From Candidatus Ruthturnera sp. Tsphm01 (GTDB taxonomy: Bacteria; Pseudomonadota; Gammaproteobacteria; PS1; Pseudothioglobaceae): 64,000 nt of DNA. Positions 52,327-56,295 of this stretch are shown piece after piece. The stretch's first letter is position 1. Every line of letters starts with the position of its first letter. The stretch lies in NCBI GenBank assembly GCA_030142985.1, contig CP125320.1:1307639-1371638 (forward strand), written 5' to 3'. The position numbers and the translations under genes were made by a program. A model generated the notes under the pieces. It saw only the letters and a program-made list of their open reading frames with translations, searched no databases and had not been told where the DNA came from.

Positions 52327-53528
52327 GTAATTACAATTTACCAGACGATAAAGGTCATTTTGAGCAATATGGTGGTGTTTTCATTGCAGAAACACTCATG
52401 ACAGCTGTTACTGAACTCAAAGATGCTTATGCTAAATATAAAGATGATAAAGATTTTATTCGTGAGTTTGAGCAGGATTTAAAGCATTATGTAGGTCGTG
52501 AAACGCCACTTTACTATGCACAAAATTTAAGCAAGAAGCTGGGCGGTGCTCAAATTTATCTTAAACGTGAAGATTTAAATCATACGGGCGCACATAAAAT
52601 TAACAATACCATTGGTCAAGCACTACTTGCTAAGCGTATGGGCAAAACACGCATCATTGCTGAAACAGGTGCTGGTCAGCATGGCGTGGCAACGGCAACG
52701 GTTGCAGCGCGTTTGGGGCTAGAATGTGTGGTTTATATGGGTGAGGTGGATGTGGCTCGCCAAGCGCTCAATGTGTTTCGTATGAAGTTATTAGGTGCCA
52801 CGGTTGTTCCAGTTACTTCAGGTTCAAAAACACTCAAAGATTCACTTAATGAAGCGATGCGTGATTGGGTGACGAATATTGATGATACATTTTATATTAT
52901 TGGCACAGTCGCAGGCCCGCATCCTTATCCAATGATGGTGCGAGATTTTCAAAGCATTATTGGCAAAGAAGCAAAAATACAATTTGCTAATCAAGTAGGT
53001 GGTCTGCCTGATGCTTTGGTGGCGTGCGTGGGTGGCGGTTCAAATGCGATTGGCTTGTTCCATACGTTTATTGATGATGCCTCAGTTGAAATTTATGGCG
53101 TTGAGGCGGCAGGATATGGCCTGGAAAAAGGTCCAACCGCACACGCCGCCCCACTTTGTGCAGGTAACGTGGGTGTGTTACACGGTAATCGTACTTATTT
53201 AATGGAGGATGAGAACGGGCAAATTATTGAAGGGCATTCAATCTCAGCAGGCCTTGATTATCCGGGCGTTGGCCCTGAGCATGCGTATTTAAAAGATAGT
53301 GGTCGTGCGCAATATGTGGCAATTGCTGATAAAGAAGCATTAGAAGCATTTCATATACTGACTAAAGTTGAAGGTATCTTGCCAGCACTGGAATCTTCCC
53401 ACGCCGTGGCGTATGGCATCAAACTTGCAAAAGAATTAGGTAAAGATAAACATATCATTATTAATCTTTCAGGTCGTGGTGATAAAGACATCCATACCAT
53501 TGCACAAATTGAAGGCATTGAGTTTTAA
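52323..53528 (+). CDS. trpB: Tryptophan synthase beta subunit
   Basis: TrpB joins indole and serine with PLP. The 401 residues show [20 protein letters not shown] with the PLP lysine (about residue 90), [17 protein letters not shown], the phosphate-binding [10 protein letters not shown] (about 233) and NLSGRGDKD near the end. trpA, its partner, is not in the window; a regulator-like gene follows instead, overlapping by 1 base. Confidence 0.98.
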
Positions 53529-54046
53529 TGAACATGTCTCAAAAAACTCAGAATACACCCTCTAAGCAGATTGTTTTGATGGCATTAATTTATATATTTT
53601 TTTCAAATGCTATACCATTTGTTAAGGATATTATAGAAGGTGATAGCCTTATGCACTTGCTACACGAAGGTGTTATTGCTTTTTTGTGTGTTATTGCAAT
53701 CTATATTGTTTGGCGTGAAATTATGATTAATAGCCGTTACACGCAGGATTTGCAACAGGATTTACAGCAAGCAAACAAGGATAGAAAAACCTATTCCAAA
53801 CAAATTAAAATTTTTAAGAATGAGTTATTTAAAGTTCTAGAAATTCAATTTAAAGGATGGTCTTTAAGCAAATCTGAACAAGAGGTGGCATTACTATTAT
53901 TAAAAGGCTTAAGCCTTGAAGAAATTAGCCAAATAAGAGGCACCAAGGAAAAAACGATACGCCAGCAAGCTTCGACAATTTATCAAAAATCTAACTTAAA
54001 GGGTCGGCACGAACTATCAGCCTATTTTCTTGAAGATTTATTCTAA
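53528..54046 (+). CDS. Membrane-anchored LuxR-type regulator
   Basis: The 172 residues have two membrane helices (VLMALIYIFFSNAIPFVKDI and EGVIAFLCVIAIYIVWREIM), a coiled coil (about 70-105, with DLQQDLQQANKDRKTYSKQI) and a C-terminal GerE/LuxR HTH (LSKSEQEVALLLLKGLSLEE, then ISQIRGTKEKTIRQQASTIY and QKSNLKGRHELSA). It could sense a membrane signal and act on DNA without leaving the membrane. The target is unknown. It starts at the trpB stop (TAATG) and may be made on the trp message; ATG 53534 is an alternative start. Confidence 0.8.
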   Translation: MNMSQKTQNTPSKQIVLMALIYIFFSNAIPFVKDIIEGDSLMHLLHEGVIAFLCVIAIYIVWREIMINSRYTQDLQQDLQQANKDRKTYSKQIKIFKNELFKVLEIQFKGWSLSKSEQEVALLLLKGLSLEEISQIRGTKEKTIRQQASTIYQKSNLKGRHELSAYFLEDLF

Positions 54047-54642: not shown

Positions 54643-55617
54643 TTAGTTTCTTCTAATAAACTCTATAAAATTAACTTTTTCTGCTGCTGTGCACTCTCGT
54701 TTGTAGGTAAATTTGCAATTTCTTTTTAGCCACTTGTTTATCTTTTTGGTGTTGGTTAATCTTTTTTGGTTAATTTTTGGTGACATGGGTTTAATTAATT
54801 TTTTAGTTTTTACATGAGTGCCATTTTTTTTAAGATTGTTGGTATGGCAACTTGTACAGCTTTTATTAGGAATTAGTTCTCTTTTCCAAAGTTGCTCCCC
54901 TTGGGTTGTATTTATTGTTGTAATGTCAACCCCCCATGAGCGATACAATTGGTTGAAATCTATTGCTCCAGAATGGACATTAAAGGCGTATAAAGATAGC
55001 AGGGCTATGTATTTATATGTGCTCATTATTAGCTTTTTTTTATTAAAAAATGTAATTTTTCCAGTAACCATCATTATTGGAAGATTCGCCTTGTAAATAT
55101 AACTAGAGTAAATAACGCCAGAAATGTGAAAGCCAATTGTAACCAATAAAATATATGACAAGAAAAAGTGTATGTCTTTGATGATAAGGGCTTGTGAGTC
55201 ATTAACATAAGTTGCAAGTAACAAAAAGATGCCTTCTAATTCAAATAAGGATTGTATTAATAAACCACTTGTTATTATTGCTACAAGCATAATTATCATT
55301 ATTAAAATCATTGTACCGCCAGCAGGATTATGGGCTTTGAATTTTACTGGCGTTAGGCTGGATAATTTAAGCAAGTAATTGAATGTTGATTTTGGGCTGT
55401 ATAGATAATTATGCCACAATGCATTTTCATTACCCATAAAACCCCAAACGATTCTTGCTAATACAAAACTGGTTAATAAATAGCCTGAGATAATATGTAT
55501 CGCATTTCCTCCATTATTGTTATTACCTGTAATAAAAAGAGCAATAAACAAAGCAACTAGAAACCAATGAAAAATTCTAATCATGATATTGATATCGGTG
55601 TTATTGGAATGTACCAT
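54643..55617 (-). CDS. Cytochrome b561 fused to SHP-type haem c domain (DUF1924)
   Basis: The 324 residues join two proteins normally encoded apart. Residues 1-190 are a four-helix cytochrome b561 with likely haem ligands H17, H41, H150 and H164. Residues 198-324 match SHP: a signal-like helix (MSTYKYIALLSLYAF), the haem motif CTSCH (254-258), and NC (300-301) and REC (307-309), the Asn ligand and cysteine pair known from SHP. The junction runs through T6 and A8 tracts; one extra T in the T6 tract would bring a stop (TAA) right after GKITFF. M198 (ATG at 55026) could still start SHP alone. Located directly ahead of the dihaem cytochrome gene. Confidence 0.85.
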   Translation of the reverse strand: MVHSNNTDINIMIRIFHWFLVALFIALFITGNNNNGGNAIHIISGYLLTSFVLARIVWGFMGNENALWHNYLYSPKSTFNYLLKLSSLTPVKFKAHNPAGGTMILIMIIMLVAIITSGLLIQSLFELEGIFLLLATYVNDSQALIIKDIHFFLSYILLVTIGFHISGVIYSSYIYKANLPIMMVTGKITFFNKKKLIMSTYKYIALLSLYAFNVHSGAIDFNQLYRSWGVDITTINTTQGEQLWKRELIPNKSCTSCHTNNLKKNGTHVKTKKLIKPMSPKINQKRLTNTKKINKWLKRNCKFTYKRECTAAEKVNFIEFIRRN

Positions 55618-55815
55618 CTTTTCACGTTGTTGTACAATTTAAATGAATGATAACTATATTAAATGCGGTTTTATATTGGGCAAAGGTCTTATTGTGGACG
55701 CTTTTATACATACGTCTAATAAAAAAGGAAGATGAGCGACCTTGAGAACGTTGTTATTTCAAATCAGGGTTTTATTTGGAGTTGTGTTGATTTTTTCCTT
55801 AGTCAGCACAATATG
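55618..55815. other. Gap upstream of the cytochrome cluster with a possible broken gene
   Basis: This 198-base stretch should hold the promoter of the cytochrome b561-SHP gene. On the plus strand a strong AAGGAAG precedes ATG 55732. From 55742 another frame reads LRTLLFQIRVLFGVVLIFSL, a basic residue plus hydrophobic helix like the N-terminus of a sensor kinase, and is cut at 55816 by the IS3-derived element. A one-base insertion would explain the ATG being out of frame. This is a weak, short reading. Confidence 0.35.
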
Positions 55816-56250
55816 TAATACCTCAAAAAACCAAACACTTCTAAAGTAGAAAATTCTACAATAAAAAACAAGGAGTTTTCACATGAAGAAATTAAGATGC
55901 ACAGACACACAAATCGTTAATATTCTTAAACAAAATCAAGCAGGAGAGTCTGTTGCATAATCTATGCCGTGAATACGGCATGTCTCAATCCACTTTCTAA
56001 ATGTGATAGATGATTACAATCAGGAAGAATTAAATATTGATGTAGATTTATCCATGCCAACAAGACAGGTGGTTCAATCATTAGAACGTTTAATCCAGTG
56101 GCGTGATAAACCCAAGGTAATTAATGGCTATGGATTTATAATAATGAACTTGCCCTAGGTGGAATACCACCAAGAGCAAAGGTGGCGTAATAAGATGGCT
56201 CTAAACAGTCAAACCTCTACTTTAGAGTTGTATGGAAAATGGGGGTATTA
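55816..56250 (+). mobile_element. Shrunken IS3-family element with both ends
   Basis: The left end begins TAATACC with CTAAAGTAGA inside (55841-55850), and the right end finishes in GGGGGTATTA with TCTACTTTAG inside, its inverted match. Between them are the first codons of orfA (MKKLRCTDTQIVNILKQNQA at 55883) with a frameshift after QAG, a join to a piece of orfB (NVIDDYNQEELNIDVDLS and SLERLIQWRDKPKV) and a second join to its last codons (WLWIYNNELALGGIPPRAKV). Two internal deletions reduced it to 435 bases. It belongs to the same family as the copy at 6921-7985. Confidence 0.8.
55883..56190 (+). pseudogene. Remnant of IS3 orfA/orfB in the shrunken element
   Basis: Start and end of the transposase are joined with the middle missing. 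No catalytic residue is left: the D of CDNGPEY and the E of YVERFNR lie in the deleted parts. The orfA piece keeps the first helix of its HTH and then reads, in a shifted frame, HNLCREYGMSQSTF. Confidence 0.75.
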
Positions 56251-56295
56251 TAGTTTGGCAATATTATTGTATCAATCAATGGCATAATACCAACC

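Follow-up and report, generated by a model that had tools for sequence, protein, structure and literature searches.

The haem protein SHP (DUF1924) is known from an operon for which a common pathway has been proposed across the family, in which quinol reduces a membrane cytochrome b (CytB), electrons pass to the dihaem cytochrome c DHC and then to SHP, and SHP binds oxygen (PMC2909971). The transfer from DHC to SHP was demonstrated for Rhodobacter sphaeroides, and an Asn (sometimes Asp or His) as sixth haem ligand, followed by a pair of cysteines, is a feature of SHP (PMC2909971). A sequence-only reading of the DNA analysed here had taken cytochrome b561, SHP, and DHC to be known as three separate genes of one cluster. 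This background was incomplete, as CytB-SHP and CytB-DHC chimeras were both reported in 2010 (PMC2909971). The CytB-SHP fusion, mentioned in one sentence for Rhodospirillum rubrum, joins SHP to the diheme cytochrome b of its own operon (PMC2909971). This is the arrangement found in the present locus, with which it was compared by description only; the R. rubrum SHP differs in having Asp in place of Asn as sixth ligand, and the fusion is regarded as an independent event because it belongs to a different lineage. The CytB/mDHC chimera of R. sphaeroides is likewise a chimeric membrane cytochrome b of the same pathway, but its partner is DHC and not SHP.

The window, which is the whole 64,000-nucleotide stretch of Candidatus Ruthturnera sp. 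Tsphm01 DNA that was analysed, contains this three-gene operon, with b561, SHP, and DHC adjacent and in the same order as in Candidatus Ruthturnera sp. CSMAG_640 (G044), the closest intact relative, and in G061 of the SUP05 family. The haem motifs are also those of this standard operon, and protein identity with G044 is 83-86% (86% for b561). The difference lies in the first two genes, which are separate and overlapping in the standard operon. In the window, positions 55617-54643 of the minus strand form a single frame of 324 codons that starts with ATG and has no internal stop. Codons 1-197 (55027..55617) encode the cytochrome b561 part (PF01292; Pfam match at residues 11-182, E 6e-20, 72.1 bits against a cut-off of 30.1), with four predicted transmembrane helices (11-31, 39-61, 98-126, and 140-175) and the histidines His17, His41, His150, and His164, which make up two haem-b pairs. 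The remainder (54643..55026) was formerly a separate gene including its signal peptide MSTYKYIALLSLYAFNVHS, and its start ATG at 55026 is now residue 198 of the fused frame. This part encodes SHP (PF09086; residues 234-321, E 3e-29, 101.8 bits against a cut-off of 22.5), with the class I haem-c CxxCH motif as CTSCH at 254, and with the Asn sixth ligand and a Cys pair 8 apart (R-N-C-KFTYKRE-C), which were present in the window and in every relative aligned. The intact DHC gene (PF09626; 54072..54632, minus strand) follows 10 bases downstream. The earlier description of b561 and SHP as one 324-codon frame with the haem residues kept was thus borne out, and at the gene level the locus is a CytB-SHP fusion, in which two intact domains lie within one open frame.

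Structure models agreed with these assignments. With 1dw0 and 1e8e as the PDB references for SHP, the model of the SHP domain matched 1dw0 (Foldseek E 1.3e-5, TM 0.82 by target length) and has the SHP fold, and the b561 part gave a weak fold match to the cytochrome b of formate dehydrogenase N (FdnI, 1kqf_C). The AlphaFold model of the fused protein consists of the four b561 helices, a low-confidence helix at 196-214, and a confident SHP domain.

The junction (55034..55050, minus strand) was analysed by aligning the DNA of the locus with that of other genomes of the genus (G044, G039, G040, and G041) and by translating alternative tract lengths. On the coding strand it reads ACA-TTTTTT-AAT-AAAAAAAA-GCTAATA-ATG, with T6 at about 55045-55050 and A8 (T8 on the plus strand) at 55034-55041, and the fused frame encodes the peptide around FFNKKKLIMSTYK. 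In G044, which has the same T6, b561 continues through FFNNEKEVNNEPI to a stop 14 nt inside the SHP gene. The ancestral phase is also retained in G040, G041, and G039, where b561 has the overlapping end ...NNE.I-stop and the operon is broken elsewhere, so that phase 0 at the junction was found in the window and the ancestral phase in all four relatives. From the start of the T run to the ATG there are 24 nt in the window (phase 0), compared with 22 nt in G040 and 28 nt in both G044 and G041 (all phase 1). In five SUP05-family genomes that are more distant, the position of the b561 end relative to the SHP ATG varies between a gap of 3 nt and an overlap of 8 nt. Since the genes overlap or abut in the relatives, the ancestral state is taken to be an overlapping or abutting pair, which was probably translationally coupled. 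With A9 the window would read FFNKKKANNEHI and end in ...KKKANNEHI, and with A6 it would read ...FFNKKANNEHI, in both cases with the stop 14 nt inside SHP as in the relatives. The fusion is therefore a one-frame slip in an overlapping gene pair, and the frame departs from that of the relatives at A8 and the former Shine-Dalgarno stretch; the strong AAGGAGG that precedes the SHP ATG in G044 is absent from the window.

These alignments changed the origin proposed from the sequence alone, which was the loss of one T from a T7 tract. A frame change on the scale of a homopolymer does make the fusion, but the tract concerned is A8 with the former Shine-Dalgarno stretch. T7 was rejected as the ancestral state, and the loss of a T is not supported as the cause of the fusion, as the closest intact relative has T6 and two genes. 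An extra T does stop b561, after 'ITFF', but no relative ends there: the close relatives have two genes, as one of the outcomes envisaged, with an overlapping stop in place of the predicted TTT TTT TAA. G039 does have T7, but the extra T is offset by the absence of one A immediately upstream, and its b561 frame still reaches the same overlapping stop.

The change could be an error of assembly or base-calling, in which case the true tract would be A9 (or A6) and the operon would have two overlapping, translationally coupled genes as in the relatives. The A8 tract is just the type of site at which bases are miscounted, a one-base change there restores the layout of the relatives exactly (...KKKANNEHI, 14-nt overlap), and the frame change is an isolated one between two domains that are otherwise intact. 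The accuracy of the assembly at such sites was estimated from 864 kb of the window's genome, set against the open frames in 1.2 Mb of G061 (1,512,449 bases). The 413 non-overlapping conserved orthologues sampled contained 58 A/T runs of 8 or 9 (49 of 8 and nine of 9), at none of which was a clean frameshift seen, and 239 runs of 7. The one gene split between frames, which by eye is TauE/sulfite-exporter-like (G000:C1, about 1,097,900-1,098,560), has several lesions unlike homopolymer miscounts and is for this reason most likely a true pseudogene. Within the window, seven other runs of at least 8, including an A8 within the SHP part, all lie in intact frames. Together these counts indicate that the assembly rarely miscounts such runs, and they argue against a high rate of homopolymer errors in it. 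A result of 0/58 is nevertheless compatible with an error rate of a few percent, and as the genes of a genome this large would be expected to contain on the order of a hundred such runs, one error somewhere would be unsurprising. An error at this site is accordingly considered unlikely, but far from negligible.

A slippage-controlled switch had also been suggested, in which RNA polymerase (or replication) would slip at A8 and give a mixture of fused (A8) and two-gene (A9) messages. Both frames would yield intact proteins, transcriptional insertions at A/T runs grow exponentially with run length in Escherichia coli and Buchnera (PMC5574713), and for Blochmannia, slippage has been proposed as a means by which homopolymer frameshifts are rescued (PMC3017870). 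Eight bases are, however, at the low end for this process, the former study reports no case of a frame restored by slippage (PMC5574713), and there is no sign of regulation at the locus. The length and context of the tract differ in each relative, and no conserved slippery tract with both products under selection was found among the relatives aligned at the locus. The suggestion of a switch thus found no support and is regarded as very improbable. The frameshifts of Blochmannia (PMC3017870) resemble the present case in that an indel arose in an A run of an otherwise intact gene in an AT-rich animal symbiont, but there one gene was split, whereas in the window two genes were joined.

The explanation preferred here, with a probability of about one half, is that the locus is an SHP operon for electron transfer from quinol to SHP in which a real, probably recent, small indel in the A run joined the first two genes. 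Comparison with G044 gave dN/dS values of 0.16 for b561, 0.22 for SHP (0.15 for residues 25 onward), and 0.12 for DHC. With the outgroups G039 and G040, the synonymous and nonsynonymous changes on the window's branch numbered 12:10, 6:9, and 29:19, respectively, a ratio of about 1:1 against the roughly 1:3 expected without selection. The three genes look to be under purifying selection, although such pairwise and branch averages say little about the time since the fusion, and the genes were kept through most of the window's branch. That branch is longer than the branch of G044 (0.106 against 0.059, with a support of 68 for the pair), which may reflect relaxed constraint.

The same indel could instead be the first step of gene decay, in which case useful production of SHP would have ceased and the operon would be following other members of the genus towards loss. 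Besides the intact copy of G044 and the fused one of the window, ten genomes of the genus have a decayed operon or none: it is broken in five (G036, G039, G040, G041, and G042), cut down to DHC scraps in two (G035 and G038), and absent from three (G034, G037, and G043). As every stage of loss is thus represented, early decay is a serious rival. Upstream of the fused frame, the stretch at 55618..55811 (minus strand) can be aligned to the relatives and reaches an MFS transporter gene of which the 3' end alone remains; in G044 this gene precedes b561, and in the window an IS-like remnant (55811..56295, strand not assigned) is in its place. Decay would also fit the missing Shine-Dalgarno sequence of SHP. 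On the other hand, b561, SHP, and DHC contain no stops or frameshifts, their dN/dS values are 0.12-0.22, and the frame change leaves SHP translatable through the fusion rather than destroying it. Incipient decay is therefore judged improbable. The loci L047, L048, L049, L050, and L051 form a graded decay series of the b561-SHP-DHC cluster within one genus, in which the formation of pseudogenes can be followed as a natural time course. The repeat at 55811-56295, probably an insertion sequence, has many partial copies: about 60 other places in its own genome match part of it, as do about 50 in G040.

If the preferred reading of a real joining indel is correct, SHP would be made mainly as a b561-SHP polypeptide, because no ribosome would stop near the SHP start and no Shine-Dalgarno sequence precedes it. 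The four b561 helices would leave the chain on the cytoplasmic side of the membrane, where the KKK stretch would remain, and the old SHP signal peptide would then act as an internal helix that crosses the membrane and places SHP in the periplasm, the site of haem c attachment. Signal peptidase I may subsequently cut this helix. Electrons would pass from quinol through the b haems to DHC and SHP, with the function unchanged or SHP only tethered. The sequence-only reading had proposed that the old signal helix anchors SHP to the membrane. This is possible but not favoured, as the linker helix is short and weakly hydrophobic, falls below the threshold in a hydropathy scan, is the least confident inner part of the AlphaFold model, and ends in the signal-peptidase-like site VHS|G. 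A motif of this type is retained in all three fusions seen in this study (VHA|A and ALA|A in the other two). SHP may for this reason be freed after export rather than stay anchored, and a gene fusion need not equal a protein fusion. An extended form of this idea, in which a polyprotein is cut at its internal signal peptide by signal peptidase I and the choice between fused and separate translation is set by an A-run length that varies between or within symbiont populations, is considered highly improbable.

The two other fusions came from a survey of two partly overlapping even samples, one with 370 genomes from the class and one with 397 from the phylum. DUF1924 matches were obtained in 64 and 65 genomes, respectively, and all well-supported matches in open frames of at least 236 aa were inspected. 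True b561-SHP fusions were identified in G493 (L090) and G787 (L091). Both have the domain order of the window in one frame, with a helix between the domains that carries the signal-peptidase-like site. They differ from the window in that they come from unrelated genomes with a locus GC of 0.56 and 0.67 and no junction homopolymer was noted, and in the G787 protein the ligand is Asp ('RDC') and the b561 part is divergent, scoring below the Pfam cut-off. The CytB-SHP fusion is thus of a known, rare, and recurrent kind, and the window adds one more independent case with an unusually clear origin. It is a small variant, probably of recent origin, in a clam-symbiont-type bacterium, not a new system, and it leaves what is known of the SHP pathway unchanged. 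If real, it catches an overlapping, translationally coupled pair passing into a gene fusion through a slip of one frame, and it does so within a genus that also shows this operon intact, broken, and lost altogether. Such a fusion can function from the start, as the downstream gene supplies its own signal peptide, and this may be why CytB-SHP fusions arose repeatedly.

The remaining long frames in the survey were rejected. Those in G137, G141, G340, G422, G454, G480, G527, G486, and G816 are stop-free stretches out of the b561 frame. The G314 frame (L086:1343-2353, minus strand) proved to be SHP-DHC, in which SHP without its last helix reads into DHC including the DHC signal peptide (PF09086 at 1-89, then PF09626). 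In G448 (L096, minus strand, about 3090-1970), a CytB-DHC chimera, which is of the second type already known, lies beside a separate SHP, whose start overlaps the end of the chimera and which is followed by a second DHC. The order-level survey gave the same result as the family-level survey, and no match was found in the phages searched. Convergent to the operon of the window, positions 53528-54046 (plus strand) encode a small protein that has a hydrophobic stretch at its N terminus and a helix-turn-helix of the LuxR type (GerE). It is possibly a membrane-bound regulator and is kept in G044.
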